A stretch of DNA of 64,000 nt from Brachybacterium endophyticum (GTDB lineage: Bacteria; Actinomycetota; Actinomycetes; Actinomycetales; Dermabacteraceae). A program made the translations under genes and the position numbers. How positions within the stretch are numbered: position 1 is the first letter of the stretch; the number at the start of each line of letters is the position of its first letter. The notes beneath the pieces are model-generated. The model saw only the letters and a list, made by a program, of their open reading frames with translations, had not been told where the DNA came from and made no database searches. Location of the stretch: positions 310,001 to 374,000 of the forward strand of contig NZ_QFKX01000002.1 in assembly GCF_003130585.1 (NCBI RefSeq), read 5' to 3'. Below are positions 4,064 through 28,165 of the stretch, one piece after another.

Positions 4064-4857
4064 GCGAGGCCGCCGATCTCTACGTGTACGCCGTGGTGGG
4101 GGACGGGGACTACCGGCCGACCGCCACCGGGATCGACGGAGCGCCTCTGCAGGTGGTCGATGCGCCGTCGGGCCTGCGGGCCGTGGTCCACGAGCACACC
4201 GCAGGGCCCTACGAGGGTCCCGACGACGACGTGAAGCGATGGATCCTCGAGCACAGCGACGCGGTCGACGACGCCTGGCAACAGTGCGGCGCGGTGCTGC
4301 CCGTCTCCTTCAACGTGATCGTCCACGGCGATCAGGAGGCCGGTTCGACCCCCGCGCAGCAGCTCGCCGACTGGCTCGAGACGAACACCTCCCTGCTGGG
4401 CCCACGTCTCGAGCACCTGGAGGGGACGACGGAGCTGCGGGTGGAGATCTCCCTGGACCGTGCGAAGCACGTGGCGGAGGACCCCGAGGTCCTTTCTCTC
4501 ACCGCGGAGATGGAGAGTCGGCCCGCCGGCGTGCGGCGACTGCTCTCCAAGCGACTGGAGAAGATGGAGAAGGACCTCGCCGATCGAGCTGCCGACGGTC
4601 TCTACCCGGACCTGCGCACGCGCCTCGCCCAGCACTGCGTGGACATCGAGGAGTACCGCCGCGCTGCGCGGGATCCGGGACTCGTCCCCGTGCTGACGGC
4701 GGCGTGCCTCGTGCGGACCGCGCAGACCGAGGGCGTGGGTGCCGAGCTCACGAGCATCCAGCAGGAGCACCCGAGCCTCAGCATCCGCTTCCTGGGGCCG
4801 TGGCCGCCCTACTCCTTCGCCGACATGACGGCGACCGAGGGATCCATGACGGCGTGA
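4060..4857 (+). CDS. gvpL: Gas vesicle accessory protein GvpF/GvpL family (second copy)
   Basis: A second GvpF/L protein (265 residues) starting MSEAADLYVYAVVGDGDY, with the family central motif (VLPVSFNVIVHGDQEA) and the ending FLGPWPPYSFADM. I assign the name GvpL only because the first copy is called GvpF; the two are paralogues. The ATG at 4060 has AGGAAGGA just upstream and overlaps the gvpK stop (ATGA). This is the last gene of the gvp operon in the window; a weak hairpin follows. Confidence 0.9.
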   Translation: MSEAADLYVYAVVGDGDYRPTATGIDGAPLQVVDAPSGLRAVVHEHTAGPYEGPDDDVKRWILEHSDAVDDAWQQCGAVLPVSFNVIVHGDQEAGSTPAQQLADWLETNTSLLGPRLEHLEGTTELRVEISLDRAKHVAEDPEVLSLTAEMESRPAGVRRLLSKRLEKMEKDLADRAADGLYPDLRTRLAQHCVDIEEYRRAARDPGLVPVLTAACLVRTAQTEGVGAELTSIQQEHPSLSIRFLGPWPPYSFADMTATEGSMTA

Positions 4858-6711: not shown

Positions 6712-7422
6712 GTGGAGACTCTCCGCGAGCTGATGCCGTACGACGATGTGCGCGGCAACTCGATCGACTACGACGGTGACCTGCCGGAGACCGCGAAGGT
6801 GACCATCAAACTCCGTGGTTCCGGTAACAGACTCGTGGTCGCGCGGGACGCGAAGATCGTGGATCTGATGGTCGATTTCTCCGGTGACGATGCGGTCGTC
6901 GTCATCGAAGGCACCACGGAGAGTCGCACGGGGCTGAGATTCTCCATGCGCCTCGGGCACGAGTGCACCGTCCGGATCGGAGAGAACGTGGGCACCGAGA
7001 CGAAGTCGTTCATCAGGGTCTCGGAGGGCCAGTCCGTCACGATCGGGGAGGACTGCATGATCGCCTCGGGCGTCGCCTTCCGGGCCGACGACTCGCACGC
7101 GATCTACGACGTCCGCACTGGGAAACGTTCGAACCCGGCAGGCTGCATCGACGTGGGGGAGCACGTCTGGCTCGGCAAGGACGTCGTCGTGATGGGTGGC
7201 GTGACGATCGGGCAGGGTTCCGTCGTCGGGCTGCGCGGGATCGTGACGAAGGACCTGCCCAACAACTGCGTCGCCGCCGGGGCGCCCGCGCGGGTGGTCA
7301 AGCGCGACGTCGCCTGGGAGCGCCCGATCCTGAGCTTCAGGGAGCCCGGCATCCCGGGGCTGCCACGAGGTCACAAGAAGAGCACGAAGTACTGGAACGT
7401 GACCCGAGCGGACGGCGACTGA
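6712..7422 (+). CDS. Left-handed beta-helix acyltransferase (O-acetyltransferase family)
   Basis: A 236-residue hexapeptide-repeat protein. Imperfect hexapeptide turns run through the middle, and the C-terminal half (GEHVWLGKDVVVMGGVTIGQ, then GSVVGLRGIVTKDLPNNCVA and GAPARVVK) is diagnostic of the maltose/serine O-acetyltransferase-like family. His87-type catalytic context is present in DDSHAIYD. It probably acetylates a wall glycopolymer sugar or alditol, judging from its neighbours; the acceptor is unknown. The start is GTG at 6712, with AAAGG about 10 nt upstream. Confidence 0.8.
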   Translation: METLRELMPYDDVRGNSIDYDGDLPETAKVTIKLRGSGNRLVVARDAKIVDLMVDFSGDDAVVVIEGTTESRTGLRFSMRLGHECTVRIGENVGTETKSFIRVSEGQSVTIGEDCMIASGVAFRADDSHAIYDVRTGKRSNPAGCIDVGEHVWLGKDVVVMGGVTIGQGSVVGLRGIVTKDLPNNCVAAGAPARVVKRDVAWERPILSFREPGIPGLPRGHKKSTKYWNVTRADGD

Positions 7423-7467: not shown

Positions 7468-9042
7468 TCAGTTCGTGTCGTTGCCTGCGGCGGCCAGATC
7501 CTTGCGTGCCTGGGCCAGTTCCTTCCGCGTCTGTGCCAACGCGACGTCCTTCTTCTTGTAGCTCTCGTAGCCGCGGCGGAGCTTCCGTCGCACCTTCCCC
7601 TGGTACTGCTCGTGCGAGGTGCCCTCGTATCGGGGGAGGTTCTTCTCGAGCTGCTCGTACGTGTAGGGGCGTGTTGCGCTCTGCGGTGCGACGACGCCCT
7701 TGATGCCCTCGAAGAGCGTCCGGTACACGTCCATCATCTCGGATGGTTTCTTCGAGACGCCCTCGTCCATCGCGCGGTCCAGCTGTGCGATCACATGGTC
7801 CGCGTTCCAATCCTCCGAGGGAATGGCCCGGTGTCCGTAGCCCACCGAGTCGTAGAAGTAGGGCACCTTGAAGTTCCAGGACAGCCCCACGCAGGGGACG
7901 GAATACGCGAAGCTGGTGATGCTTGCGTGCAGGCGGTAGGCGATCACCCCGTCGCAGGCGGTCAATTCACCGATCAGCTCTTCGGGAGAGTTCACGGTGA
8001 ACATCGTCTTGCTGATGGGGACATCGCGCTTTCGGACAATGTTATCCAGGAACACCTCGTCGGCGAAGTGGCCGGTGGTGAACAGTCGGTAGTCGTCCCC
8101 GCGCGCCTTGAGCTTCGCGATGACATCGAGCCAGAAGTCCTGTTGATCCTTCTCCGAGAAGTTGATCTTGTTGTCCTTGAAGATTCCGGCTCGAGTGACC
8201 ACGAGACCGATTCGTCGCCCCGAGGTCTTCTTCGGAGCCGCCGAGTCCCCCGCAGACGTGGCCTGCTGCGTCGCGGCCCTCGCAGCTTCCTCCTCTCGTC
8301 GGCGCGCCTGGACAGCGAGGCGGGGGAGTGCGCGGTGCGCCGTCCGGCGGGCGATCTGCTCGATCTGCCGGCGGGAGGTCGATGCGGCTCTCGAGAGTGC
8401 GGACGCGGACGTCCGCTTGGGTGCCTCGCCTGCGGGATCGCCTGCGTCGACGGGCGCGCCGAGGTTCGTGGCGGCGCTGCTCTCCTGGGGATCCGCGATC
8501 GGTCCGAACACGATGTCGGCGTAGACGGCGGGGTCGGCGACGTGTGCGGTGGGAATGCCCGTCTCCTCGGTGTACTTACGCACTGAGTCGAAGTCGTCGC
8601 GCGTGGTGATCTGGCGGACCACCGGCAGCTGCAGCGCCTGCTTGAGTCGCTGGGACTTCTCGTTCTGGGCGTCGTACTTCTCCACGCCGATGCTCGAGAA
8701 GATCACGGGGACTCCGAACTCCTGAGCAATCTCGAGAGTCGTGATGGTCTTCCGATAGAACACTTGGTAGGCGTAGTTGAAGAGCGGCGCGCCTCCGAAG
8801 ATCAGGAGGTCGGCGTTCGAGATCGCTTTGCGCGCCGCCGACAGGTGCTTGGGGTCGTTCCGCTGCAGGTACTTCTTGTTGATGATGCCCGCTGCACGGC
8901 TGTCGATGACGAACGATTCATCGTCGCGACCGAGATTCCTCATGGCGGCCTTGATCAGTGCGATCACCGAGGCCTCGATGATCTGATCTCCGACATTGTC
9001 CGAGTCGTTGTTGGTCAGCAGGAGGACCTTGAACTTGGGCAC
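7468..9042 (-). CDS. Polysaccharide pyruvyl transferase family protein with internal low-complexity insert
   Basis: The N-terminal half (LLTNNDSDNVGDQIIEASVI, then ADLLIFGGAPLFNYAY and the HVADPAVYADIVFG segment) and C-terminal half (RRIGLVVTRAGIFKD ... CDGVIAYRLHASITSFAYSV) match the PS_pyruv_trans/WcaK-CsaB family, which adds ketal pyruvate to sugars or has related glycosyltransferase-like folds. Residues ~186-274 are an Ala/Arg/Ser-rich insert between the two lobes, and a short Ala/Lys/Gln helix ends the protein; 524 residues is long for the family. The start is GTG with GGAG 6 nt upstream. It is transcribed away from the 9328 gene. Confidence 0.75.
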   Translation of the reverse strand: MPKFKVLLLTNNDSDNVGDQIIEASVIALIKAAMRNLGRDDESFVIDSRAAGIINKKYLQRNDPKHLSAARKAISNADLLIFGGAPLFNYAYQVFYRKTITTLEIAQEFGVPVIFSSIGVEKYDAQNEKSQRLKQALQLPVVRQITTRDDFDSVRKYTEETGIPTAHVADPAVYADIVFGPIADPQESSAATNLGAPVDAGDPAGEAPKRTSASALSRAASTSRRQIEQIARRTAHRALPRLAVQARRREEEAARAATQQATSAGDSAAPKKTSGRRIGLVVTRAGIFKDNKINFSEKDQQDFWLDVIAKLKARGDDYRLFTTGHFADEVFLDNIVRKRDVPISKTMFTVNSPEELIGELTACDGVIAYRLHASITSFAYSVPCVGLSWNFKVPYFYDSVGYGHRAIPSEDWNADHVIAQLDRAMDEGVSKKPSEMMDVYRTLFEGIKGVVAPQSATRPYTYEQLEKNLPRYEGTSHEQYQGKVRRKLRRGYESYKKKDVALAQTRKELAQARKDLAAAGNDTN

Positions 9043-9327
9043 TATTGCTCCGTTATCTTCGTGTTCACCGGCTTGTCGCGCGTTGTTCAGCTGGTGTCGG
9101 CGGCTACGATGTCACCTGGCGTTCAGCTTGCGTCTACCGGACGTACAGTACCCAGCGCGGGCTGGACGTGGAAGCGGCTGCGCCGCGGGCGTCGTTGCCC
9201 GCGGTGATGTGCGCCGCGCGTTTCTGCAGTTCAACGAGCTGGCAACTGTCAGCCTCGGCAGCGGTGCCGTGAGGGGACCGGGGGCGAGTGGTCGTCCGTG
9301 GAAGAAGCAAGGGAAGGGGCTTGTCGA

Positions 9328-11361
9328 GTGGCGGCACGCTTGAGAGTGGCAGAGATCTCGTGGAGTCATATCTGGGTGACGTTCAGGCTCACCTTCGATG
9401 GCATCGAGGATCCACCCGTCGCTGTTCCGGACGAAGCGCAGCCCGTAGGGGATCAACGCCTGGGGCTTCGATCCTCGCGCGCAGCCGGGAGTGCCTCCGA
9501 GGCCAGCGGCCTCCCCGACGTCTCCCCGGAGTTCGCGCGAGCCGCCGGCGAGGCGGCGACGCGGACCGGTCGTTCCGTCGAGAGCCCCTCGGAAGACGGT
9601 GCCTCACTCGAGACCGAGTCGACCGAGGCCGAGGCGATGGGCGTCGTCGAGGTGCCCGTCGAGCAGGAGGTCGCCACCGATCCCGTGGCCGTCCCCTCGG
9701 TGGAGCAGATCGAGTCCGGCGCCGTCGAGTTCATCTTCGTGGACAAGAAGAAGGTGCAGCGGGCCGAGGCGACGCACCTCGGCGGTCGCGATTACGAGAT
9801 CCGCGTGAACATCACCCGCTTCAACGGCCGGCGGCAGTTCCCCGACGGCACCTGGAGGCTCATCCCCCGGGTTGCCGGGCAGCGCGGCAAGGCCGCTACC
9901 TACAGCCTCTCCGATGCGGAGCGGCTGCCGGAGCTCTCCCGTGTCTACATGTACGACTCGAACAAGACCGGGTACACGATCTCCTTCGGGTTCTCCGAGG
10001 CGGAGGATCCGCCGATCCTGCTCATGCGCGTCTACCAGCTGTTCCGCAGGGCGAAGAAGCCGAAGAAGCCGAAGCTCTCCACCCGCATCAAGCGGTACCC
10101 CTCGACCCTGCGCAAGCGGCTGACGAGCAGGAAGAAGAAGACCGAGACGCTCACCTCGTTCTACTCCTACGTGCGCAGCCACCGACCGGAGGGCCGGAAG
10201 CCGAGGATCCTGTTCGCCTCGGAGCAGCGCCCCCGCATCAGCGGCAACCTGCTGCGCATCCGGGACCGCATGATCGAGCGCGGTCTGGACAAGGACTTCG
10301 AGTTCACCGAGTCCTTCCGCATCCCCAGCACGAGCGACAAGCGCTCGACCCTGCGTGCCGTCAAGCTGCTCGCCGAGGCCGACTTCGTCTTCATCGACGA
10401 CTACTTCGCGATGTTCGACTCCCTCAAGCTCGCGAAGGACTGCACCATCGTCCAGGTCTGGCACGCGGGCAGCGGCTTCAAGGCCGTGGGGTACAGCCGG
10501 TTCGGCAACTACGGCTCGCCGAAGCTCCAGAACGCGCACCGTCGTTACACCTACGCGATCACGGGCTCCAAGCATCTCGTCCCGGTCTACGCCGAGGTCT
10601 TCGGCATCGAGGAGGAGGCGGTCGTCCCCACCGGTCTGCCGCGCATCGATGCCTTCCTCGACCCTGAGCGCACCGAGCGCGTCAAGGAGGACTTCTACCG
10701 GGAGCATCCCGACCTCCACGGCAAGAAGCTCATCCTGTTCGCGCCGACGTTCCGCGGCCGCGGCATCAACGACGGCTACTACGACTTCGACGAGATCGAC
10801 TTCGACGCGCTGTACGAGTACTGCGGGGACGACGCCGTCGCCCTGTTCCGCATGCACCACTTCGTCAGCACGCCGATCCCGATCCCGCCCGAGTACGCCG
10901 ATCGCCTCCGCGACTTCTCCCACTTCCCCGACGGCAACGACCTGCTCCATGTCGTGGATCTGCTCATCACCGACTACTCGTCCATCATCTACGAGTACTC
11001 GCTGCTCGAGCGCCCCATGCTGTTCTTCGCCTACGACAAGGACGTGTACGCCACGACTCGTGGCTTCCACCGCGACTACGTCGAGACCGCGCCGGGCAAG
11101 GTGTGCGGCACCTTCGACGAGCTGATCTCGGCGATGAAGGACGAGGACTACGAGCAGTGGCGCCGGGAGAAGTTCGTGCGCGAGAACTTCGACCACGTCG
11201 ACACGCACTCGGCGGACCGCGTCATCGACTGGCTGCTCCTCGGTCGCCCGATCGGCAGCCCCGTCGAGGGCGAGGGCGCGATCGAGGCACAGGAGCTGAA
11301 CGATCCCGCCGCCGACGCGACGGGAACGACCCGCGAACCCGTGAAGGAGACCGCATCATGA
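9328..11361 (+). CDS. CDP-alditol phosphotransferase (TagF/TagB-like, CDP-glycerol family)
   Basis: A 677-residue protein. The first ~150 residues are a beta-rich/low-complexity region, followed by a basic stretch rich in Lys and Arg, which could contact membrane. The C-terminal ~390 residues are the Glyphos_transf domain: VQVWHAGSGFKAVGYS, GLPRIDAFL, ILFAPTFRGRG, then RMHHF and the DLLITDYSSIIYEYSLLERP nucleotide-binding region. Family enzymes transfer polyol-phosphate from a CDP-alditol to the growing teichoic acid. I chose the GTG at 9328 (GGGAAGGGG 8 nt upstream) rather than the in-frame GTG at 9298. The stop overlaps the next start (ATGA). Confidence 0.88.
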   Translation: MAARLRVAEISWSHIWVTFRLTFDGIEDPPVAVPDEAQPVGDQRLGLRSSRAAGSASEASGLPDVSPEFARAAGEAATRTGRSVESPSEDGASLETESTEAEAMGVVEVPVEQEVATDPVAVPSVEQIESGAVEFIFVDKKKVQRAEATHLGGRDYEIRVNITRFNGRRQFPDGTWRLIPRVAGQRGKAATYSLSDAERLPELSRVYMYDSNKTGYTISFGFSEAEDPPILLMRVYQLFRRAKKPKKPKLSTRIKRYPSTLRKRLTSRKKKTETLTSFYSYVRSHRPEGRKPRILFASEQRPRISGNLLRIRDRMIERGLDKDFEFTESFRIPSTSDKRSTLRAVKLLAEADFVFIDDYFAMFDSLKLAKDCTIVQVWHAGSGFKAVGYSRFGNYGSPKLQNAHRRYTYAITGSKHLVPVYAEVFGIEEEAVVPTGLPRIDAFLDPERTERVKEDFYREHPDLHGKKLILFAPTFRGRGINDGYYDFDEIDFDALYEYCGDDAVALFRMHHFVSTPIPIPPEYADRLRDFSHFPDGNDLLHVVDLLITDYSSIIYEYSLLERPMLFFAYDKDVYATTRGFHRDYVETAPGKVCGTFDELISAMKDEDYEQWRREKFVRENFDHVDTHSADRVIDWLLLGRPIGSPVEGEGAIEAQELNDPAADATGTTREPVKETAS

Positions 11362-12077
11362 GCGTCGGAGTGATCTTCGCGGGGGGCATCGGCAGCCGCA
11401 TGAACTCCCGCGCACTGCCCAAGCAGTTCCTGGAGGTGAACGGGCGGCCGATCATCGTCCACACATTGCAGCACTTCGAGGACCATCCCGAGATCGAGGC
11501 GGTCGCCGTGGCGATCCTGCCCGCGTGGCGCGATCACTTCTCGAAGCTGGTCTCGCGCTACGAGCTCACCAAGGTGAAGTGGATCGTGGACGGCGGCGGG
11601 ACGGGCCAGCAGTCCCGACACCGTGCGCTGCAGGCCGTGTCGGAGGAGCGCCCGGCGGACACCGTGGTGCTTGTCCACGACGGCGTCCGCCCGTTGATCG
11701 ACGAGGGCCTCATCTCCAGGAACATCCGTGGGGTCGAGGAGTACGGCACGGCGATCACCTGCTGCAAGGTCAACGAGACCATCGTGACCAGTGATCACGG
11801 CGAGGTCGGATCGATCATCCCGCGCGGCAACCTGTTCGCCGCCCGGGCGCCTCAGAGCTTTCGTCTCGGCGAGATCCTCGCCGCCTACGACGCGGCCGTG
11901 GCCAGCGGGGAGGACGACACCATCGACTCGTGCTCCGTCATGAAGGACTTCGGGTCCACGCCCCTGCACAGGATCGACGGCCCCGTCTCCAACATCAAGA
12001 TCACCACGGCGGAGGACTTCTACGTCTCCCGCACGTACTTCGAGCTGATCGAGAACCAGCAGATCGTGGGGTTCTGA
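11358..12077 (+). CDS. IspD/TarI-type cytidylyltransferase (first of two)
   Basis: A 239-residue IspD-family nucleotidyltransferase: the CTP-binding loop IFAGGIGSRMNSRALPKQFL, the VLVHDGVRPLID metal site, and the late NIKITTAEDF motif. IspD itself acts in isoprenoid synthesis, but here the gene overlaps a CDP-alditol transferase gene (ATGA) and precedes an NAD-dependent epimerase/reductase-type gene by 2 nt, so it more likely makes a CDP-alditol for the wall polymer. A second, distinct copy is at 13926. The activated alditol is not determined by sequence. Confidence 0.85.
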   Translation: MSVGVIFAGGIGSRMNSRALPKQFLEVNGRPIIVHTLQHFEDHPEIEAVAVAILPAWRDHFSKLVSRYELTKVKWIVDGGGTGQQSRHRALQAVSEERPADTVVLVHDGVRPLIDEGLISRNIRGVEEYGTAITCCKVNETIVTSDHGEVGSIIPRGNLFAARAPQSFRLGEILAAYDAAVASGEDDTIDSCSVMKDFGSTPLHRIDGPVSNIKITTAEDFYVSRTYFELIENQQIVGF

Positions 12078-12079
12078 CC

Positions 12080-13129
12080 ATGAGTGCTTCGACACGAGTG
12101 ATGGCCGATGACATCGCCGAGATCATCGGCCGCGACCTCCCCTGGGAGAAGCTGACGGGCACCACGGTGCTCGTGACCGGAGCGAGCGGCATGCTGCCCT
12201 CCTATGCGGTGCGCACACTGCTCCGGTTGAACGACGAGCACCAGGCGGGGATCACCGTCCTCGGACTCGTGCGCAACGAGGAGAAGGCTCATCGGGCGCT
12301 GTCCGACGTCGTCGAGCGGACGGACTTCCGTCTGATCGTGCAGGACGTCTCGGCGCCCCTGGATCTCGAGGGCCCCTTGGATCTGATCATCCACGGTGCG
12401 AGCGCGGCGCGGCCGTCGCTGCACAGTGCGGATCCGATCGGCACCATGAAGGCGAACCTCCTGGGGACCATGAACCTCCTGGACCTCGCCGCGCGCACGG
12501 GCAGCACCTTCTCGCTGATGTCCTCGGCCGAGGTCTACGGCTCCCAAGCAGCGGACGTCGAGCTGATCGGGGAGAACAGCTACGGCGGCTTCGACATCCT
12601 CAACCCTCGTTCCTGCTACTCCGAGGGCAAGCGTGCAGCGGAGACCCTCTGCTCCGCGTACGCCGCGCAGCACGGGATCACCTGCAGGATCGCCCGCTTC
12701 GGGCACATCTACGGTCCGGGCATGGCGCTGGACGACGGTCGCGTGCAGGCGGAGTTCACGGCGAAGGTCCTGGCCGGCGAGGACATCGTGCTGAACAGCG
12801 ACGGCAGCGCGCAGCGCACCTACACCTACGTCGGCGACGCGATCGCAGGTCTCTTCTTCATCCTGCTGACGGGGGAGGAGATGGTCTACAACATCTCCGA
12901 CGTCGACGGCCTCACCTCCATCCGCGGTCTGGCGGAAGCGTTCACCACCGTGCGCCCCGAGCTCGGTCTGCAGGTGCACACCAAGCCCTCGGACACGGGC
13001 AGCCGCTACGCGGCGGCGAAGGCGCAGGGCCTGGACAGCGCACGGCTGCTCGCGCTGGGATGGCGCCCGCTGGTCGATCTCTCGTCCGGGCTCGCCCGGA
13101 CGGTCCGCAGCCACGCCGACGAGGCCTGA
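12080..13129 (+). CDS. NAD-dependent epimerase/dehydratase-type oxidoreductase
   Basis: A 349-residue extended SDR protein: nucleotide-binding loop VLVTGASGMLPSYAV (GxxGxxP-like), DLIIHGASAARPS, the MSSAEVYG serine region, and the catalytic YSEGK (Tyr-x3-Lys). It begins 2 nt after the preceding cytidylyltransferase, so the two probably act together. In several capsule loci an IspD-type enzyme paired with such an oxidoreductase supplies CDP-linked mannitol or arabinitol; that analogy is from memory and would make this the sugar-phosphate reductase. UDP-sugar epimerase is the alternative. Confidence 0.8.
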   Translation: MSASTRVMADDIAEIIGRDLPWEKLTGTTVLVTGASGMLPSYAVRTLLRLNDEHQAGITVLGLVRNEEKAHRALSDVVERTDFRLIVQDVSAPLDLEGPLDLIIHGASAARPSLHSADPIGTMKANLLGTMNLLDLAARTGSTFSLMSSAEVYGSQAADVELIGENSYGGFDILNPRSCYSEGKRAAETLCSAYAAQHGITCRIARFGHIYGPGMALDDGRVQAEFTAKVLAGEDIVLNSDGSAQRTYTYVGDAIAGLFFILLTGEEMVYNISDVDGLTSIRGLAEAFTTVRPELGLQVHTKPSDTGSRYAAAKAQGLDSARLLALGWRPLVDLSSGLARTVRSHADEA

Positions 13130-13157
13130 TCCTCCGGCGCCCGCCACAGGGCGAACG

Positions 13158-13199
13158 GGAAGGGGCCGGGTGCAGCGTGTGCTGCACCCGGCCCCTTCC
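13158..13199. terminator. Strong bidirectional terminator, 19-bp stem
   Basis: Arms 13158-13176 and 13181-13199 pair perfectly over 19 bp around a GTGT loop (core GGGGCCGGGTGCAGC). It sits between the converging epimerase and SDR genes and terminates both. Confidence 0.85.
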
Positions 13200-13225
13200 T
13201 CATCCGCCGCGGAGGCGTCGATCGC

Positions 13226-13933
13226 TCACTGGCGGACGACGATGTTCTCCGAGTCGATGAAGCGGCCCACGGGCGAGGCGAAGGTCTCGATGACCCGCGC
13301 GACGTGCTCGGGCTGCATGATCGTGTCCGGGTCCTCGTCGGGCGCGAGCGTGCGACGCAGGGCCGTCGCCGTGCGACCGGGGGACAGGCAGACCACGCGG
13401 GTGCCGTAGATCGCGAGCTCCTCGCGCATCACCTGGCTCATGTTGATCACGGCCGCCTTGGAGGCCGAGTAGGTGAGCCAGCCCGAGCGCCCGTTGATGC
13501 CGGCGGTCGAGGCGATGTTGACGATCAGCTTGAAGACGTTGCCCTTGTTCAGCAGCGTCTTGACGATCAGGAACGGCGCGTAGACGTTCACGTTCATCGT
13601 CTTCTCGAAGTCCTCGATCTCCGCCTGCTGCAGCGGGATCGGGTTCGTGTAGCCCGCGTTGTTGACGAGGATGTCGATGTTGCCGACCTCCTCGTGCACG
13701 GACTCGAGGTTCTCGATCAGCGAGTCGCGATCGCCCACGTCGACGTAGCGCGTGATGATCTTGCGGCCCACGGGGCTCGAGGAGCGCAGCTCCTCGACGG
13801 CCTCGTCGAAGTCGTCGGACTTGCGGGCGAACATCACGACGGTGGTGATGTCCTCGCTGTTGTGGATGAAGCGGTGCACGGTCTCCAGACCGATCCCGCG
13901 CGAAGCACCGGTGACGAGAGCGGTCTTAGTCAT
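13226..13933 (-). CDS. Classical SDR reductase paired with a cytidylyltransferase
   Basis: A 235-residue short-chain dehydrogenase: TGASRGIG cofactor loop, DILVNNAG, IASTAGIN serine region and the catalytic YSASK. It overlaps the upstream IspD-type gene by 8 nt, in the same order (cytidylyltransferase then SDR) as the two domains of the fused Haemophilus Bcs1/Acs1 enzyme, which reduces ribulose 5-phosphate and makes CDP-ribitol. By that analogy this is the ribulose-5-phosphate reductase. The substrate is inferred from the fusion precedent, not shown by the sequence. Confidence 0.78.
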   Translation of the reverse strand: MTKTALVTGASRGIGLETVHRFIHNSEDITTVVMFARKSDDFDEAVEELRSSSPVGRKIITRYVDVGDRDSLIENLESVHEEVGNIDILVNNAGYTNPIPLQQAEIEDFEKTMNVNVYAPFLIVKTLLNKGNVFKLIVNIASTAGINGRSGWLTYSASKAAVINMSQVMREELAIYGTRVVCLSPGRTATALRRTLAPDEDPDTIMQPEHVARVIETFASPVGRFIDSENIVVRQ

Positions 13934-14612
13934 CGTCTTCCTCCTCCGGGCGCAGGAGGAAGCCCGCCATGCGCAGATCAGTGGGCGTGGTGACCTTGAA
14001 GTTCACGTCCGAGCCGTCGATGAAGTACACCGGGTGGCCGGCGACGGCGACCAGGGTCGCGTCTTCCGTGAAGACCTTCTTGTCCTTCTCCGCCTGGGAG
14101 TGGGCGTCGACCAGATCGGCCTTGGAGAACTTCTGCGGCAGCTGCACGTTGCGCAGCTGATCGCGCTCCAGGGAGCCCGTGACCTCGCGCGTGTCCGGGT
14201 CGACCGGAGCCACCGTGAAGGAGATCGGGGTCATCAGCGAGACGTTCGCGTGCTGGTCCTCGATGAGGTCCTCGAAGTTCTTCTTCGTCACCAGCGGGCG
14301 CGCGGCCTCGTGGATGATCACGTTCTCGTTCGTGCAGTGCGGGAGCATCGCTGCGACGGAGGAGTGGCGCGAGTCGCCGGCCTCGACGAGCGTGACCGGG
14401 GTGGAGATCGCGTAGTCCTCGAGCACCTGCTCGACGGACTCCTTCCACTCCGGCGGGTAGTTCAGGACGATCTGGTCGATCTTCTCGACACGGTTCGCCA
14501 TGACCAGTGCGTAGACGAGGATCGGGATGCCGCGGAGCTTCAGCAGCTGCTTCGGCTGGTTCGCGCCGACGCGGGTCCCGATCCCTCCGTTCAGCAGGAT
14601 CAGTGAGTACAT
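13926..14612 (-). CDS. IspD/TarI-type cytidylyltransferase (second of two), probable CDP-ribitol synthase
   Basis: A 228-residue IspD-fold protein: ILLNGGIGTRVGANQPKQLL (nucleotide loop), VIIHEAARPLVT metal site and VNFKVTTPTDLRMA near the end. The C-terminus carries an acidic run (EEEDDD). It is translationally coupled (8-nt overlap) to the SDR gene that follows, making a split version of the bifunctional CDP-ribitol enzymes. It differs clearly in sequence from the copy at 11358, so the two probably act on different alditol phosphates. Confidence 0.8.
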   Translation of the reverse strand: MYSLILLNGGIGTRVGANQPKQLLKLRGIPILVYALVMANRVEKIDQIVLNYPPEWKESVEQVLEDYAISTPVTLVEAGDSRHSSVAAMLPHCTNENVIIHEAARPLVTKKNFEDLIEDQHANVSLMTPISFTVAPVDPDTREVTGSLERDQLRNVQLPQKFSKADLVDAHSQAEKDKKVFTEDATLVAVAGHPVYFIDGSDVNFKVTTPTDLRMAGFLLRPEEEDDD

Positions 14613-14882: not shown

Positions 14883-15821
14883 TTGACTGCTAGCGAACCG
14901 GCGACCCCCGCTGTGCCCCCACCCCTGGAGCGCACCTACGCCCCGGAGTGGGTGGAGACCACCGCGCGGCAGAACGGCCTGGATCGGATGGGCGTGCGCC
15001 CCTCGCTGCGGGAGTACATCCCGGAGCTGTGGAAGCGACGCACCTTCATCCGGGTGCTGGCGATCTCGAAGGCCCAGGCCAAGAACCAGAACACCTACCT
15101 CGGTCAGGTCTGGGCGCTGCTCACGCCGATCCTGAACGCCTTCGTCTACATCCTCATCTTCGGCTTCATCCTGCAGGTGGGCCGCGCGGGGATCGAGAAC
15201 ACGATCGCGTTCATCGTGGTCGGCGTCTTCATGTTCCGCTTCTTCGAGATGTCGCTGACGGCGGGCTCCAAGGCGATCCGCACCAACATGAACCTGGTGC
15301 GCTCGGTGCACTTCCCGCGTGCCGTGCTGCCGATCGCGGGCGTGGCGGCGGAGCTGACCACGCTGGCGCCGGCGCTGGTGGTCATGTGCGTGATCGCCTA
15401 CTTCTCCGGGCTGCTGCCCAACGAGGGCGCGGTGCCGCTCGCATGGCGGTGGCTGCTGCTGGTCCCGGCGGTGCTGCTGCTGTGGTGCTTCTGCACCGGC
15501 GTCTCCTTCATCATGGCGCGCGTGGTCGCGCAGACCCCGGACATCGACAACCTGATCCCCTTCGGCGCGCGCATCCTCATGTACGCCTCCGGCGTGATCT
15601 TCTCCATCGACCACTTCGTCGGGAAGTTCTCCTGGGGATGGGTCATGGAGTACCAGCCGGTGGCCGTGTACCTCTCGCTCGCGCGATCGAGCATCCTGAA
15701 CGAACCCGCCTACCCGCTGGATCCGGTCATGTGGCTCGTCGGCCTGGGATGGGCCGCCGTGTTCCTCGTGGGCGGGTTCCTCTACTTCTGGCAGGGGGAA
15801 GAGACCTATGGCCGCAATTGA
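14883..15821 (+). CDS. Teichoic acid/polysaccharide ABC exporter, permease (TagG-like)
   Basis: A 312-residue ABC-2 type permease. A ~60-residue cytoplasmic N-terminus (REYIPELWKRRTFIRVLA) precedes about six membrane segments, including FVYILIFGFIL, TIAFIVVGVFMFRFF, LVVMCVIAYF and the final VMWLVGLGWAAVFLVGG. It forms the channel that flips lipid-linked polymer. It overlaps the ATPase gene by 14 nt. The assigned start is TTG at 14883 with a poorly spaced GGAG; an in-frame GTG further on is possible. Confidence 0.88.
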   Translation: MTASEPATPAVPPPLERTYAPEWVETTARQNGLDRMGVRPSLREYIPELWKRRTFIRVLAISKAQAKNQNTYLGQVWALLTPILNAFVYILIFGFILQVGRAGIENTIAFIVVGVFMFRFFEMSLTAGSKAIRTNMNLVRSVHFPRAVLPIAGVAAELTTLAPALVVMCVIAYFSGLLPNEGAVPLAWRWLLLVPAVLLLWCFCTGVSFIMARVVAQTPDIDNLIPFGARILMYASGVIFSIDHFVGKFSWGWVMEYQPVAVYLSLARSSILNEPAYPLDPVMWLVGLGWAAVFLVGGFLYFWQGEETYGRN

Positions 15822-16686
15822 CACCGACGAGGACGACTTCGAGGTCGATGCCGAGGACCTCGACAACACTCCCGTCGCCGAGAGCGACTCCGAGCGCCTC
15901 TCCCTGCTGGTCAACGACCTGCACGTGACCTATCGCGTCTTCGGCGCGAAGAAGGTGGGCCACGGCCCCGCCAAGAAGCAGACCGCCCTGCAGAAGTTCC
16001 TCAGCCGGGGTGCCTCCCAGCAGGGCGTGCGCGAGGTGAAGGCGGTGCGCGGCATCTCCTTCAGCGCGCGCCACGGCGAGTCCATCGGCATCATCGGCGT
16101 CAACGGCTCGGGCAAGTCCACGCTGCTGCGCGCCATCGCCGGGCTGATCCCGCCCGCCTCCGGCTCCGTCTACGTCGCGGGCGATCCCGCCCTGCTGGGC
16201 GTGAACGCCGTGCTGATGGGGGACCTGAGCGGCGAGCGCAACATCATGATCGGCGGTCTCGCCCTGGGCCTCACCCAGCAGCAGGTCAAGGACCGCTACC
16301 AGGACGTCGTCGACTTCGCCGAGATCGGCGAGTTCGTGAACCTGCCGATGAAGTCCTACTCCTCAGGCATGGGGGCGCGGCTGCGCTTCGCGATCTCCGC
16401 GAGCGCCGTGCCCGACATCCTGATGATCGACGAGGCGCTCTCGACCGGCGATGCCGGGTTCCGTGCCAAGAGCAAGGCCCGGATCAACGAGGTCCGCGAG
16501 TCGGCCGGGACCGTGTTCCTGGTCAGTCACTCGCTGGCGACCGTGAAGAGCATGTGCGAGCGCGTGCTGTGGGTGCACAAGGGGCAGCTCGTCATGGACG
16601 GGCCCGCGGACGAGGTCTGCAAGCACTACAAGAAGTTCGTCAACGAGACGAAGAAGCTCGCGGAGGAGCGCGCCGCGGAGAAGTGA
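15808..16686 (+). CDS. Teichoic acid/polysaccharide ABC exporter, ATPase (TagH-like)
   Basis: A 292-residue ATPase: Walker A GVNGSGKST, signature YSSGMGARLRFAIS, Walker B ILMIDEALS and the switch histidine in VSHS, with a characteristic TagH/Wzt-like insertion before the Walker A. The first ~35 residues are acidic. It powers export with the 14883 permease, whose last 14 nt it overlaps. No C-terminal sugar-recognition domain like that of Wzt is present, which fits teichoic acid rather than O-antigen export. Confidence 0.9.
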   Translation: MAAIDTDEDDFEVDAEDLDNTPVAESDSERLSLLVNDLHVTYRVFGAKKVGHGPAKKQTALQKFLSRGASQQGVREVKAVRGISFSARHGESIGIIGVNGSGKSTLLRAIAGLIPPASGSVYVAGDPALLGVNAVLMGDLSGERNIMIGGLALGLTQQQVKDRYQDVVDFAEIGEFVNLPMKSYSSGMGARLRFAISASAVPDILMIDEALSTGDAGFRAKSKARINEVRESAGTVFLVSHSLATVKSMCERVLWVHKGQLVMDGPADEVCKHYKKFVNETKKLAEERAAEK

Positions 16687-16879
16687 TCCCGGGAACGGGA
16701 GCGGCGGGACCGGACATGGGCCGGTGCCGCCGGCGCTCCCCGCGCGCATCGCCGGTGGGTGGCGGTGGAGTCGAGGGGATCGCGAGGGGTGGTCCGGGCG
16801 CCGTGCCCGTGACACCGTGACCACGAGGAGCCCGCGCGGGGGAGAACGCGCCGGGTTCCCTGCACCGAGGGGGAAGACG

Positions 16880-18697
16880 ATGACCCAGCCAGAGGTCTCC
16901 GAGAAGACCGAGCCGGAAGGCTCCGGGAGCACCGGGCCGGAGGTCTCCGTGATCATGGCCGTCTACAACGCCGGGACGTATCTCGAGGATGCGCTCGGAT
17001 CGACGATGCAGCAGGGCCTCGGCGCGACGCAGATCGAGGTGATCGCCGTCGACGACGGATCGACCGACGGCTCCGCCGACGTGCTCGACCGCTTCGCGTC
17101 CGCGCATCCGAACGTCCGGGTGATCCACCAGGAGAACTCGGGAGGCCCGGGCGGTCCCCGCAACACGGGCCTCGACCTCGCCACGGGCCGCTACGTCTTC
17201 TTCCTCGACGCCGACGACCTGCTCGCCGAGAACGGCCTGCGCGAACTGGTCGCCGTCGCGGACGAGCAGGGGTCCGACGTCGTCCTCGGCCAGGTGCACG
17301 GCATCGACGGGCGCTCCGCGCGTGGAGCGACGTTCCCGGCGACGCGCCTGCACGTGGACCTGATGGAGGACAGGATCTTCCGCACCCTCGGTCCGTGGAA
17401 GCTCTTCCGACGTGAGCTCCTCGAGCAGCACGGCATGCGCTTCCGCACCGACGTGAAGGTCGCGGAGGACCAGCTGCTGGTCGCCCAGGCCTACCTCACG
17501 GCCTCCGTCATCAGCATCTGTGCCGACCGCGACTACTACTACCTGCGCCAGCGCGAGGACGGCGGCAACGTCACCCGCACCAAGCGCGGGCCCGTTGAGC
17601 TCGTCGACGCCTTCACCCGGCTGACGGAGGTCGTCGTGGCGAACACCGAGCCGGGGCCGCTCCGCGACGCGGTGATGTGGCGCTCGGTGACCTGGTCGCT
17701 CGGCAAGCCCCTGGACGCCCGGTTCCTGCAGGGCAGCGAGCGTGACCAGCAGTACGTGGTGGACAGGATCCGTGCCGTGCTCGCCCCGGTCTACACGCCC
17801 GGCGCGGCGGAGCACCAGGAGCCCCTGCTGCGCCTGAAGACCGAGCTCGCCCTGGCGGGGGAGACGGACACCCTCCGCCGCGTCATCGAATGGCAGAAGC
17901 CGCGTCTGAAGCCCCCGCGGCTGCTGCGGCTCACCGACGACGGCGCGGCCTACGACCTGCCCGAGGACCTCGCCCGCCAGATCGGCCCGGAGCGCCTCCC
18001 GCCGCCGCCCCTCAGTGCGAAGGGGATGCTCCTGGGCATCGAGGTGGAGGGCGACAGGGTCCTCGTGCGCGGGGCGGCCCGGATCCGACGCGCCGTGAAC
18101 CCGGCACCGCAGACGCTCCTGCGTCTGCGCGAGCGCGAGAGCCGACAGGTGATCGATGTGGCGGCGCGCCTGCGGAGAGCCGAGGAGCACAAGGACGGTG
18201 TCGGGGCCGAGTTCGACCTCGCCGTCGAGACCGATCGGCTTCCCGAGGGCGTCTGGGACGCCTGGATCGTCCAGCGCGCCGGGGAGTCCGAGGCCGTGCG
18301 ACGGTTCGGCGGTGCGCGGGCCGCCGACGTGGAGACCGGGCAGCGGGAGCTGACGGACGCGGACGGTCGTGCCCGCGGGATCGTCTACTTCACCAAGAAG
18401 GCGTCGAACCTCTCGATCGACATCGGCTTCCAGCTGCATCCCGATCCGAACGCTCCGGAGGAGCCGGAGGAGGAGCAGGCGGAGCAGGCGGAAGCGGAGC
18501 AGGGGGAGACGCCCGAAGGACCCTCTGCCGCCGGGACACCGGCCGAGGCGACGTCGGCCGACGCGGACGTCCGCGGCACCGCCCCCTCGGACCGCGACCG
18601 TGAGGGTCACCGGACGGATGCCGAGGGAGACGCGCAGACCGATCGCAGGCGCGGCGGGATCCGCGGCGCCGTCCGCAGGATCCTCGGCGGGCGCTGA
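16880..18697 (+). CDS. GT2 family glycosyltransferase with long C-terminal region
   Basis: The N-terminal ~230 residues are a GT-A glycosyltransferase: VSVIMAVYNAGTYLEDAL, VDDGSTDGS, and FLDADD (the DXD-type metal/nucleotide site). About 250 residues follow with no recognised domain, then a Glu/Ala-rich acidic tail (~500-590) and a basic RRGGIRGAVRRILGGR end. The ATG at 16880 has GAGGGGGAAG just upstream. It lies 193 nt after tagH on the same strand, so it may be part of the export operon. The sugar is unknown. Confidence 0.82.
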   Translation: MTQPEVSEKTEPEGSGSTGPEVSVIMAVYNAGTYLEDALGSTMQQGLGATQIEVIAVDDGSTDGSADVLDRFASAHPNVRVIHQENSGGPGGPRNTGLDLATGRYVFFLDADDLLAENGLRELVAVADEQGSDVVLGQVHGIDGRSARGATFPATRLHVDLMEDRIFRTLGPWKLFRRELLEQHGMRFRTDVKVAEDQLLVAQAYLTASVISICADRDYYYLRQREDGGNVTRTKRGPVELVDAFTRLTEVVVANTEPGPLRDAVMWRSVTWSLGKPLDARFLQGSERDQQYVVDRIRAVLAPVYTPGAAEHQEPLLRLKTELALAGETDTLRRVIEWQKPRLKPPRLLRLTDDGAAYDLPEDLARQIGPERLPPPPLSAKGMLLGIEVEGDRVLVRGAARIRRAVNPAPQTLLRLRERESRQVIDVAARLRRAEEHKDGVGAEFDLAVETDRLPEGVWDAWIVQRAGESEAVRRFGGARAADVETGQRELTDADGRARGIVYFTKKASNLSIDIGFQLHPDPNAPEEPEEEQAEQAEAEQGETPEGPSAAGTPAEATSADADVRGTAPSDRDREGHRTDAEGDAQTDRRRGGIRGAVRRILGGR

Positions 18698-18822: not shown

Positions 18823-20682
18823 TCAGTCCTCCTCGTCCTCGTTCTCGCCCTCGGCGTCCTCGCCGGCGCTGCCGGTGTCCTCGGCCGCAGCGGCCCGGCT
18901 GTTCCGGGACTCGTCCACACCCTCGTCGGCGCCCTCGGTGACGGCGTTCAGCGCCGCGACGGGCTTGCGCTCGTGCAGCACGACGTTGCGGGCCGCATCG
19001 ACGAAGGCGTCGGCGTAGTTCTCCGCCGGGAACGGGCCCAGGTAGTCCACGCGCGTCTGCTTGCGCTGGTTCCCCTTGGGGTCGGTGACCAGCAGTCCCT
19101 CGAGCATCTCGTCGAGATTCGAGAGGTCCTCGGCGATCACGTACGCCGAGCGGGCCAGCGGGAACATCCGCTCGAACTCCGCGATCGAGTAGGACATCGT
19201 GACCAGGCCGTAGGGCTTGCCGGAGTACAGGAAGTCCGGCACCACGGAGGAGACGTCGGAGATCATCGCATCGGCCGCGTTGAAGCAGCCGAAGGCGTCG
19301 AGGTCCTTCTCCGCTGCCCTGCCCCACAGGTGCTCGCGGCCACTCGCCTCCTGGTCCTCGCGCAGCATCTGCTTGATGGCGCTGATGTTCTGGCGGGCCG
19401 CGGGGTTGCGGTAGCTGAAGGGGTGCGGGCGGAAGACGACCGTGATCCCGCGGTCCAGCAGCTCGCGGATGATCTGCGGACCCACCGGGAGCGAGCCGTA
19501 GTTCGTGTCCGCGTAGTGCCCCTCCCAGGTGGGGGCGTACAGCACGGTGCGCACGGGGAGGTTCTCCGGGCCCTGCTGCTCGACGGTCTCCACCTGCGGG
19601 CGGCCCACGATCGTGAACTTCTCCTGGGGGATGTCCACGCCGTTGTTCTCGTAGCGGTCGATCGCCGCCTGGCCGGCCACGAACACCTTGTCGTACAGGG
19701 CGGTGACGGGGTTGAAGCTCGAGGCCTTGTCGCTGTCCCCGTGCAGCAGCTGCACGTGGGTGATCTGCGGGTAGCGCACCAGGTGCACGTTGGGCGCCGA
19801 GTTGTTGACGTAGAAGGCGGTGGTGATCGACGGGGTGATGACGTCGTCGAGCTGCCAGATGTTCGTGCGCACCACGACGGGGGCGTCGGTCAGGCGTCGG
19901 ATCTCGCGGAAGGCGGAGGTCTTGCGCAGCACCACGATGAAGGGCTCGCCGATCCGCTCGAGGTACTCGATCCACATGCCCACCTGGTAGGCGGACCCGG
20001 CGGGGACGCCGTAGTAGAGCACGAACTTCGGAGCGTAGGCCTCGACGGCCGCGTAGAGGTTGTTGTCGGCGTTCACCGAGTCGCGCACGCGGCGGAAGGA
20101 ATCCAGCGCGTGGTAGCCGGCGACGGCGAGGGCGATCAGCGGCAGCACCAGCAGGGCGCCGGCCGGCACGCCCACCAGCAGCAGGAGAGAGGCGAGGGCG
20201 GTCAGCGAGAGGTCGACGACCAGCACGACGTTCACGGGGAAGGCCGGACCGCGGTGATCGGGGATGCCCGGCAGGTTCGCCACCCGCAGCTTGCGGCCGG
20301 GGGCGACCCTCGTGACGACGGGCTCGGAGAGCGGCACCAGGGCGAACAGGGTCGCGGTGATCCAGCCGACCACGCCCGTGGAACCCTCGGCCCAGCAGAT
20401 GGCCAGCGGCAGCAGTCCCAGCAGCAGACGGATCCCGTGCTCCCCGGCCAGCGCGGCACGGCCGACGTGCTTGCGCAGACGCCGGTAGCCGCGGCGGATC
20501 AGGATGAAGAACGGGTAGACCGCCGGGATCGCGGCGATCGCCGGATGCACGCCGATCGCCATCAGCACGAACGGGGCGATCGCGAAGATCGTCTGGGTCA
20601 GGCGCCGGCGCAGACCGGCCATGCGCTGCCACGGCACGGACATCCGGTGCGTCGTTGCCGAGGGGTTCGAGGATTCTGTCAT
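18823..20682 (-). CDS. CDP-alditol phosphotransferase with N-terminal membrane segments
   Basis: A 619-residue protein. Residues ~20-210 hold several hydrophobic segments (FAIAPFVLMAIGVHPAIAAI, AALLVLPLIALAVAG type), so it is probably membrane-bound. The rest is the CDP-glycerol glycerophosphotransferase domain: VQLLHGDSDKASSFN, FVAGQAAIDRY, GRPQVETV, VLYAPTWEGHY, FRPHPFSYRN, ISDVSSVVPDFLYSGKP. The tail is very acidic. Start: ATG at 20682, with AGAAGG about 9 nt upstream. It shares several blocks with the 20866 gene, so the two are likely paralogues. Confidence 0.85.
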   Translation of the reverse strand: MTESSNPSATTHRMSVPWQRMAGLRRRLTQTIFAIAPFVLMAIGVHPAIAAIPAVYPFFILIRRGYRRLRKHVGRAALAGEHGIRLLLGLLPLAICWAEGSTGVVGWITATLFALVPLSEPVVTRVAPGRKLRVANLPGIPDHRGPAFPVNVVLVVDLSLTALASLLLLVGVPAGALLVLPLIALAVAGYHALDSFRRVRDSVNADNNLYAAVEAYAPKFVLYYGVPAGSAYQVGMWIEYLERIGEPFIVVLRKTSAFREIRRLTDAPVVVRTNIWQLDDVITPSITTAFYVNNSAPNVHLVRYPQITHVQLLHGDSDKASSFNPVTALYDKVFVAGQAAIDRYENNGVDIPQEKFTIVGRPQVETVEQQGPENLPVRTVLYAPTWEGHYADTNYGSLPVGPQIIRELLDRGITVVFRPHPFSYRNPAARQNISAIKQMLREDQEASGREHLWGRAAEKDLDAFGCFNAADAMISDVSSVVPDFLYSGKPYGLVTMSYSIAEFERMFPLARSAYVIAEDLSNLDEMLEGLLVTDPKGNQRKQTRVDYLGPFPAENYADAFVDAARNVVLHERKPVAALNAVTEGADEGVDESRNSRAAAAEDTGSAGEDAEGENEDEED

Positions 20683-20841
20683 CGAGGGGGATCCTTCTTG
20701 TGCGGTCAGCATCGTGAGGCGTGCTCGGACGGCGTGGTGTCGGCGGCCGGGGTCAGCCCGGACGGACACCGCCGCGAGAGTACTCGGTGGGTATCGGATG
20801 GCGACGGCGGGAACGGGACTCCGTGATCCAGCCCATGCCCT

Positions 20842-20865: not shown

Positions 20866-22116
20866 TCACCGGGGGTCCTCCTGGATCTGGTTCTGCTGGA
20901 TCGAGGCCCACAGCTCGTCCCGCAGCACGGCGAGGTCGTCGCAGGCCTTCAGGAAGCGCTCCAGGGATGCGCCCGGGGTGGTGTCCCCCAGGTAGTACTC
21001 GGTGAGCGCGCGACGCTCGTCGGCGAGCGGATCCTCCGTGATCTGCTCGTTCGCGACCTCCCCGGCGCGCGGGGCGTCCTGCGCGCTCAGGCGCGGTGCC
21101 ATCTGCAGCAGGCGGGTCGCGGCCTCGCGCGGCCCCTCGGGGGAGGCGGCCCGGGTGACGATCAGCGGCTTGCGCGTGGACAGCCAGTCCGTCGCCACGG
21201 CGGAGACGTCACAGATCATCAGGTCCGCGCGGGCGAAGTCCTCCTGGGTGCTGTGGCCCTCCGAGACCTCCTGGCCGTGCTCGACGAGCAGCTCGCGCAG
21301 GCGGGCGTCGGCCTCCCCGTACTCGGGCAGGCGCACGCCGGTCAGCGGATGCGGGCGGTAGATCACGCGCAGCCCGGCGGCGAGCAGGGAGTGGACGATC
21401 ATCTCGGACTGCGTGGTCAGCGAGGAGTAGGCGACGCTCGCCTGCCCGCCCTCCCAGGTCGGTGCGTAGAGCACGGCGGGCGGCGACCCCTCGGGGCGCG
21501 CGGGCAGGGTCACCCGGTCGGTGTCCAGGCTCGGACGGCCGACGGGGATGCAGCGGGTGCGGGCGTCGAACAGGGTCGAGTAGCGCTCGATGCGGTCGAT
21601 CGCCGCCTGCCCGGCCACGAAGGAGAAGTCGTAGGCCTTGATCTGGTTCGAGACCGAGACCCCCTTGTCGCTGTCACCGTGCAGGAGGGAGACGTGGAGC
21701 GCCGAACGGCTGCGCAGCGGCGCCGTGTTCAGCGGGTTGTAGTTGACGTACAGGATCAGCCGGGTGCTGCTGCGCAGGATCAGCGCATCCAGCGTCGCGT
21801 CCCGCGCGACCGTGATCACCGGCATGGTCACCATGTCGCGCAGCCGTGCCGCGACCCGCGAGTCCATGCAGATGATGGTGACGCCGCGCCGGGCGTGCAG
21901 CTCCTTGAGGGGGCCGAACCAGTCGCGCAGCTGGTAGAGGCTCTCGAGGGTGTCGGGGAAGTAGAGGACGACGTCGCCCTCGAGCACCGTGTCGGTCAGG
22001 CGGTCGTCGTCGCCCAGGCCGTCGGGCACGCCGCCGGGCAGCAGCCCGAACCGGCGCAGGAGGCGTCCGCCGGTGCTGCGCACCCTGCGCTTCAGAGAAT
22101 TGCCGCGAGGGGCCAT
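20866..22116 (-). CDS. CDP-alditol phosphotransferase family protein (soluble form)
   Basis: A 416-residue Glyphos_transf protein lacking the membrane region of its neighbour: VSLLHGDSDKGVSVSNQIK, FVAGQAAIDRIERY, VGRPSLDTDR, VLYAPTWEGGQ, YRPHPLTG, ICDVSAVATDWLSTRKPL. The HGDSDK and GQAAIDR blocks are shared with the 18823 protein. It may be a primase-like (TagB) or alternate polymerase; sequence does not decide. The start overlaps the stop of the 22116 gene by 1 nt (TGATG), and GGGAGG lies upstream, so translation is coupled. Confidence 0.83.
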   Translation of the reverse strand: MAPRGNSLKRRVRSTGGRLLRRFGLLPGGVPDGLGDDDRLTDTVLEGDVVLYFPDTLESLYQLRDWFGPLKELHARRGVTIICMDSRVAARLRDMVTMPVITVARDATLDALILRSSTRLILYVNYNPLNTAPLRSRSALHVSLLHGDSDKGVSVSNQIKAYDFSFVAGQAAIDRIERYSTLFDARTRCIPVGRPSLDTDRVTLPARPEGSPPAVLYAPTWEGGQASVAYSSLTTQSEMIVHSLLAAGLRVIYRPHPLTGVRLPEYGEADARLRELLVEHGQEVSEGHSTQEDFARADLMICDVSAVATDWLSTRKPLIVTRAASPEGPREAATRLLQMAPRLSAQDAPRAGEVANEQITEDPLADERRALTEYYLGDTTPGASLERFLKACDDLAVLRDELWASIQQNQIQEDPR

Positions 22117-25210: not shown

Positions 25211-25349
25211 GACCGGGCCGGGCGAGGGGTGCGCGAGTCAGGATGACGCCGGCTGAGCGGGCGACGCCGGCACCTCGCTCGGCGTGCGTGAGATGGGCTG
25301 GCTCCTCCGCGCCGCGCCTGGGGACGCCCCGGAGGAAGAGCGCAGAGCC

Positions 25350-28115: not shown

Positions 28116-28165
28116 CGTGGGCAGCATCGAGAACGTCACCGAGTACGCCGAACACGTCGCCGCAA

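Follow-up and report, generated by a model that had tools for sequence, protein, structure and literature searches.

The window analysed here, a stretch of 64,000 nucleotides from contig NZ_QFKX01000002.1 of Brachybacterium endophyticum (positions 310,001 to 374,000 of the forward strand), contains two convergent genes for cytidylyltransferases of the IspD family (PF01128), IspDa and IspDb, each accompanied by a reductase of a different kind. We read the locus as, probably, a wall-polymer cluster fed by two independent cytidine diphosphate (CDP)-alditol routes that would provide two different activated alditols. The core of this reading, two CDP-alditol routes unrelated to isoprenoid synthesis, is well supported, and we also consider it likely that the products of the two pairs differ. 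A first-pass annotation of the same DNA had described two distinct, opposed IspD-type cytidylyltransferases, one next to an epimerase-like protein and one next to a classical short-chain dehydrogenase/reductase (SDR). This arrangement was borne out, as all four reading frames are open and the Pfam scores of all four proteins lie above the curated cut-offs. The core genes are as follows (positions are those of the window).

11358..12077, plus strand: IspDa, putative cytidylyltransferase with a ketose phosphate as predicted substrate (PF01128, 143.2 bits; 239 amino acids)
12080..13129, plus strand: epimerase-type (extended) SDR, predicted CDP-ketose reductase (PF01370 Epimerase, 133.5 bits)
13226..13933, minus strand: classical SDR, putative reductase in a second alditol route (PF00106 adh_short, 155.4 bits)
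13926..14612, minus strand: IspDb, member of a divergent cytidylyltransferase subfamily with an NGG loop and an HE..RP motif (PF01128, 142.7 bits)

Neither cytidylyltransferase serves the methylerythritol phosphate pathway

The genome of B. endophyticum (3.55 Mb, 17 contigs, completeness 99.89%) was searched for three enzymes of the two isoprenoid routes, DXR, IspF and HMG-CoA reductase (HMGR). Since it gave no match to IspF or DXR and one match to HMGR, neither IspDa nor IspDb serves the methylerythritol phosphate (MEP) pathway. Among the 38 genomes of the genus, that of the window included, DXR was found in 26 and HMGR in 16, and all 12 genomes without DXR have HMGR. Canonical IspD tracks DXR: it is present in 25 of the 26 genomes with DXR and in none of the 12 without, the exception (G026) being a genome of 88% completeness in about 750 contigs. 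The matches of all 25 canonical IspDs lie at 69-100% for the canonical type and at 27-32% for IspDa/IspDb, and ispF adjoins the canonical gene in L063, the sole locus scanned for it. That IspDa or IspDb is nevertheless the isoprenoid IspD of this genome is very improbable. The top Pfam and NCBIfam match of both proteins is indeed IspD, and the genome holds no other one, but it is a genome with HMGR and without DXR and IspF, and the canonical IspD of the genus is a clade of its own. The scores of IspDa and IspDb against NCBIfam ispD (150 and 160, cut-off 181) were counted as neutral on this question, since the three canonical IspDs of the genus that were scanned also fall short of the cut-off, with 154-169 bits; it is the presence of the pathway and the tree, and not the NCBIfam cut-off, that discriminate the isoprenoid enzyme. 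The first-pass annotation had held that a genome whose only IspD is one of these two copies would speak against alditol routes. The present genome comes near to this, its only PF01128 match besides IspDa and IspDb being GlmU, but the point is without force because the MEP pathway is absent.

Two side observations concern the genus. It is divided by isoprenoid enzymes: DXR occurs alone in 22 genomes, HMGR alone in 12, and both in four. In addition, at a distance of a few hundred bases from the canonical IspD gene there is a degenerate IspD-like one (L063:7556-8281, plus strand), with equivalents in 11 other MEP-type Brachybacterium loci in the tree; in these 12 loci, it has kept neither the GG.G.R loop nor PKQ nor the NIK motif.

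Phylogeny and motifs of IspDa and IspDb

The tree comprised 71 rows, for which high-scoring segment pairs of at least 150 aligned residues and no stop were used (this filter removed L083; alignment A4 is without L135). Separate clades were formed by IspDb (21 rows, support 100/100), IspDa (10 rows, 100/99), the canonical IspD of the genus (12 rows, 100/100), TarI (four rows, 100/99) and fused IspD-SDR proteins (nine rows, seven of them different, with two pairs of identical rows from the same genomes; 100/100). IspDa, TarI, the fused type and a protein from Parabacteroides (L089) form a superclade with support 98/92; IspDa and TarI are joined only at 60/10. IspDb sits on a long branch, and the tree program warns of long branches meeting. 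Approximately unbiased (AU) tests rejected none of three joint clades, that of IspDb with IspDa (p 0.137), the one with the fused type (p 0.12) and the one with canonical IspD (p 0.20). The placement that had been proposed as a check, with the expectation that neither protein groups with IspD and that the two group apart, thus came out as expected in the best tree, albeit with the AU result for IspDb and canonical IspD attached.

IspDa has the motifs AGG.G.R, HDGVRP and NIK. In all 21 IspDb rows the first loop reads NGG, and HD is replaced by HE, as part of HE..RP. The other enzyme groups, from which the 12 degenerate rows were set apart, have HD throughout (38 rows) and NGG/HE nowhere, three of the 38 rows having no first loop in the aligned stretch. 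The motif table and alignment A1 draw on these 21 rows, which are only some of the IspDb loci; 26 more frames were picked by NGG itself and are therefore no test of it. Judged by these sequence features, IspDb is a narrow and distinct cytidylyltransferase subfamily.

The aspartate of the HD motif is a metal ligand. Its constant replacement by Glu, together with NGG, is what could favour a lost or changed catalysis of IspDb, so that the IspDb-SDR pair would make a CDP compound other than an alditol nucleotide or act in regulation, and route A would be the sole alditol supply. We regard this as improbable, since IspDb keeps the remaining signature stretches (GG.G.R, PKQ, the PQ stretch and K.T), its ratio of nonsynonymous to synonymous substitution rates (dN/dS) is 0.25-0.37 versus five relatives, the pairing with an SDR is constant, Glyphos_transf genes are often nearby, and nine of the 12 genomes without DXR have IspDb. 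A decayed IspDb gene was likewise considered and dropped on the dN/dS values. By IspDb identity, B. subflavum (90%) and B. halotolerans (88%), both of which have the two pairs, are the closest named relatives, followed by Brachybacterium sp. EE-P12 (86%) and by B. squillarum (80%), which has IspDb only.

The two modules occur independently

Within the genus, IspDa was found in four of the 38 genomes (the window's, G002, G010 and G034) and IspDb in 22, of which nine are without and 13 with DXR. One of the 22 (G014) is counted by its match pattern only, and the IspDb matches G014:C32 and G031:C174 are not among the fetched loci. IspDa is absent from 18 of these 22 genomes. IspDa without IspDb was found in two genomes of the class sample, G076 and G406, the latter only 63% complete. 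In 394 genomes of the class, the IspDb profile matched the window's genome only (E 1e-45), and the IspDa profile gave seven matches, four of which belong to the fused IspD-SDR clade, leaving three. At E 1e-40, IspDb was detected in 27 genomes among 396 of the order; 16 of these belong to the genus and 11 to five other genera. A Microbacterium likewise carries IspDb, with 67% identity. One genome of the genus (G031) has two IspDb-type matches, at G031:C88:3595-4245 and G031:C174:1364-2014.

Pair A and its putative ketose phosphate route

The following genes adjoin pair A or lie close to it.

9298..11361, plus strand: TarL-like alditol-phosphate polymerase (Glyphos_transf; PF04464, 239 bits), in the same operon as IspDa
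7468..9042, minus strand: polysaccharide pyruvyl transferase adjoining the IspDa module (PF04230, 70.6 bits)
6712..7422, plus strand: hexapeptide acyltransferase-like protein close to the IspDa module (PF00132, 37 bits)

The coordinates of the TarL-like gene are those of its longest frame, the true start being uncertain (9328 had been given before), and its protein reached 330 bits against NCBIfam TarL, far under the cut-off of 1000. The ATG of IspDa at 11358 overlaps the stop codon of this gene (11359-11361). A TarL-like gene lies directly 5' of IspDa in all six loci in which this region was covered (window, L046, L049, L056, L080 and L135). Such a gene precedes IspDa in the window, in three other Brachybacterium, in a Streptomyces plasmid and in G076, and the order TarL-like gene, IspDa, reductase recurs in the Streptomyces plasmid and in L135. 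Two plasmids of lactic acid bacteria have an IspDa-clade gene and an oxidoreductase/epimerase-family gene in capsule-type loci, where no TarL-like gene is directly upstream. A pyruvyl transferase gene is near IspDa in all four Brachybacterium IspDa loci, the window included, and was not seen in L080 and L135. A hexapeptide transferase gene was found near IspDa in the window, L046, L049, L056, L080 and L135, and also in L125, which shows no IspDa.

Pair A combines the PF01128 and PF01370 domains, as in the CDP-glucitol/CDP-mannitol route. The pairs HS5.18/HS5.17 of Campylobacter jejuni and Mnp1/Mnp2 are described as having the same composition, and CDP-6-D-glucitol synthesis in C. jejuni as cytidylyl transfer to fructose-6-phosphate followed by reduction with NADPH (PMC10918830). 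Residues E151, R177, Y180 and K184 of the pair A reductase align with Glu140, Arg164, Tyr167 and Lys171 of the C. jejuni enzyme, as numbered in that source. Pair A thus resembles HS5.18/HS5.17 and the CDP-D-mannitol pair Mnp1/Mnp2 of Streptococcus pneumoniae 35A, HS5.18, Mnp1 and Mnp2 being likened by description, in that a PF01128 gene adjoins that of a PF01370 reductase, which aligns with structure 8V4G and in which the Glu, the Arg and the Y...K pair are retained. In contrast to these systems, it lies in a wall-polymer locus with a TarL-like polymerase and with pyruvyl and hexapeptide transferases. The CDP-D-arabinitol pair Abp1/Abp2 of S. pneumoniae uses xylulose-5-phosphate. Here the comparison concerns length only, with 240 amino acids given for abpA (PMC10118250) and 239 for IspDa. 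No ribulose-phosphate 3-epimerase gene was found among the scanned genes beside IspDa, unlike in a Parabacteroides plasmid (L089:4001-8657), where an IspD-like gene, an oxidoreductase, a ribulose-phosphate 3-epimerase and two CDP-glycerol transferase-like genes stand together, a set that suggests a xylulose-5-phosphate route. With TarI/TarJ of Staphylococcus aureus and Bacillus subtilis, both window pairs share an IspD-fold alditol-phosphate cytidylyltransferase within a teichoic acid locus. TarJ belongs to another reductase family, the zinc-type alcohol dehydrogenases, whereas the reductases beside IspDa and IspDb are SDRs, and TarI is a clade apart from both.

In route A, IspDa would couple cytidine triphosphate to a ketose phosphate (fructose-6-phosphate or xylulose-5-phosphate), the epimerase-type SDR would reduce the CDP-ketose to CDP-mannitol, CDP-glucitol or CDP-arabinitol, and the TarL-like enzyme from the same operon would polymerise the product, which the pyruvyl and hexapeptide transferases may decorate. 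Pyruvylation fits such a route but does not pick the alditol, since it is reported both on a 1,6-poly(mannitol phosphate), in Brevibacterium iodinum, which is described as having a glycerol teichoic acid in addition, and on a poly(ribitol phosphate), in Nocardiopsis metallicus (PMC6801904). The predicted structures of the pair A reductase and of IspDb are poor, with mean predicted local distance difference test (pLDDT) values of 46.2 and 46.6 from shallow alignments of three and six rows, respectively.

Pair B and its resemblance to fused CDP-ribitol synthases

On the far side of IspDb follow genes for export, glycosyl transfer and two further putative transferases.

14883..15821, plus strand: membrane subunit of an ATP-binding cassette (ABC) exporter, TagG-like (PF01061, 41.8 bits)
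15808..16686, plus strand: ABC exporter ATPase, TagH-like (PF00005, 63.9 bits)
16724..18697, plus strand: TarS-like family 2 glycosyltransferase (PF00535, 113 bits; PF22181 TarS_linker, 45 bits)
18823..20769, minus strand: GlyPT2, remote Glyphos_transf with a hydrophobic N-terminal part (PF04464, 34 bits)
20866..22116, minus strand: GlyPT3, remote Glyphos_transf (PF04464, 33 bits)

The TarS-like protein matched PF18674 TarS_C1 with 22.3 bits, under the cut-off of 26.3. Each of the 32 fetched IspDb loci has a classical SDR next to IspDb, aligned only in part in one of them (L052). The two genes overlap by 8 nt at 24/24 measured loci, the measured ones being those of the 33 scanned that fitted the search pattern. 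Neighbours of the IspDb-SDR pair in most of the 20 loci fetched from the genus are a TagGH-like exporter, GlfT2-like and TarS-like glycosyltransferases and a remote Glyphos_transf. Outside the genus, a GlyPT2 homologue was found near IspDb in nine of 11 fetched loci, and in one other genus (six genomes) it was the only neighbour of the IspDb-SDR pair found among 16 query proteins. Fused IspD-SDR genes, too, have GlyPT2-like genes nearby, in L008 of Microbacterium and in L138, and a similar gene follows the Nonomuraea gene in L087. In Microbacterium sp. TNHR37B (L008:6778-11390), a fused IspD-SDR gene, a GlyPT2-like gene, a split IspDb and an SDR gene are consecutive on one strand.

TarS acts on ribitol phosphate. 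Because of the TarS-like glycosyltransferase and of the GlyPT2-like genes near fused IspD-SDR genes, our guess, by analogy, is CDP-ribitol as the product of pair B. In the fused CDP-ribitol synthases of the Bcs1/Acs1 type, for which a Parabacteroides protein (L084) and actinobacterial fusions stood in for Bcs1 itself, a cytidylyltransferase is followed by a classical SDR in the same order as in pair B. A stretch P.RT.T..R near the C-terminus of the SDR is shared as well, being present in 12/12 split SDRs and 4/4 full fused proteins and in 0/4 of the PDB SDRs compared. Pair B differs from this type in being two overlapping genes instead of one polypeptide, and in an IspDb that forms its own clade with NGG and HE. 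In route B, a second CDP-alditol would come from the classical SDR and IspDb. CDP-ribitol is its likeliest identity if the pair is read by analogy with the fused type of Bcs1 from Haemophilus, in which reduction is cited as preceding cytidylyl transfer (PMC10918830). GlyPT2 and GlyPT3 would use the product, the TarS-like glycosyltransferase would decorate the polymer and the TagGH-like ABC transporter would export it. A bolder version appears rather unlikely to us: the IspDb-SDR pair could be a new two-gene type of CDP-alditol synthase, encountered here in some Micrococcales only, in which Glu replaces the Asp of the HD motif and the product is an alditol nucleotide other than CDP-ribitol; with route A added, the wall would contain two unusual alditols and lack glycerol.

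Same or different alditols

Both pairs could also yield the same CDP-alditol (e.g. CDP-ribitol), as a redundant or separately regulated supply by convergent enzyme sets. We consider this unlikely, although there is a precedent in the duplicated tarIJL genes of S. aureus, described as two sets for one product (PMC1458327), and although TarI, the fused type and IspDa share a supported superclade and fused and split IspD-SDR genes occur together in one Microbacterium locus. Against a common product, the reductases of the two pairs are different kinds of SDR, IspDa keeps the TarL-like polymerase directly upstream, although not in the lactic acid bacteria, and each module is found without the other in other genomes. 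Two different alditols therefore remain our preferred reading, with mannitol, glucitol or arabinitol for pair A and perhaps ribitol for pair B as candidates that we infer from these comparisons. Besides the tarIJL precedent, several points count against parts of this reading. Within the genus, IspDa occurs only where IspDb is also present (4/4). Among solved structures, the pair A reductase is closest to UDP-glucuronate decarboxylase, with 149 bits versus 98 bits to the CDP-6-glucitol synthase 8V4G. The pair B SDR profile gives 70-96 bits for fused-type SDR domains (17 bits for one cut by a contig end) and up to 113 bits for ordinary SDR structures; as it does not separate the two, it was rejected as a discriminator. 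Finally, because fused and split sets coexist in Microbacterium L008, the split pair may not make the product of the fused type.

All three Glyphos_transf genes of the genome lie within this locus, and no glycerol-3-phosphate cytidylyltransferase was found in the genome at E 1e-3. The wall-alditol chemistry of B. endophyticum thus seems to run via the two pairs and these three transferases, and glycerol, which we had considered as a third alditol, was dropped. The first-pass annotation had proposed two CDP-alditol pathways with three CDP-alditol transferases, giving one mixed polymer. The three transferases do exceed the PF04464 cut-off of 22.1, albeit very unequally, and the matches of the two remote ones cover only part of the profile. 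Of the pathways, their non-isoprenoid nature, separate clades, different reductases and separate occurrence stood, while the alditols named and the difference between them are proposals, and a single mixed polymer is one possibility besides two polymers.

Precedents and implications

In the literature searched, no description of two IspD-type CDP-alditol pairs in one locus was found. The kind of phenomenon is known, since two teichoic acids that differ in their alditol are described for one strain of B. iodinum (PMC6801904), tarIJL is duplicated in S. aureus, and Eggerthella lenta strains are reported to swap tarI/tarJ and tarD/tagF, the strain-variable tarI/tarJ being linked to a pentitol (PMC10234575). 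New, within that literature, are the combination of two IspD-type routes and the subfamily formed by IspDb. The account of a Brachybacterium wall in PMC5766140 states teichoic acids, glucosamine, galactose and glucose, and names no alditol in that statement. IspD-like genes of polysaccharide loci are sometimes annotated as isoprenoid genes (e.g. ispD in a capsule-type locus), and a mevalonate-type genome with two IspD-like genes shows this label to be wrong for both. The genus, with members having IspDb alone, both pairs or neither, offers a natural comparison for tying gene content to wall chemistry, and the substrate of the IspDb subfamily is directly assayable.

Intergenic hairpin and other genes of the window

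Between the convergent pairs lies one further element.

13157..13200, no strand assigned: perfect hairpin of 20 pairs with a 4-nt loop, possible two-way terminator

The 86-nt stretch with this hairpin has a minimum free energy of -62.5 kcal/mol versus -39.5 (sd 3.1) for 200 shuffles (z -7.5). A terminator of 19 bp had been proposed here; the hairpin itself is confirmed with a length of 20 bp, and we grade the terminator role as plausible only, because the hairpin has no T-run and is absent from the list of the terminator scan. Elsewhere in the window, gas vesicle genes (Gas_vesicle, GvpL/GvpF) were found at 2830-4857, and a DUF4194/MksE-like protein and a large SbcC-like ATPase at 24401-31928, a set which we take to resemble a Mks/Wadjet-type condensin.

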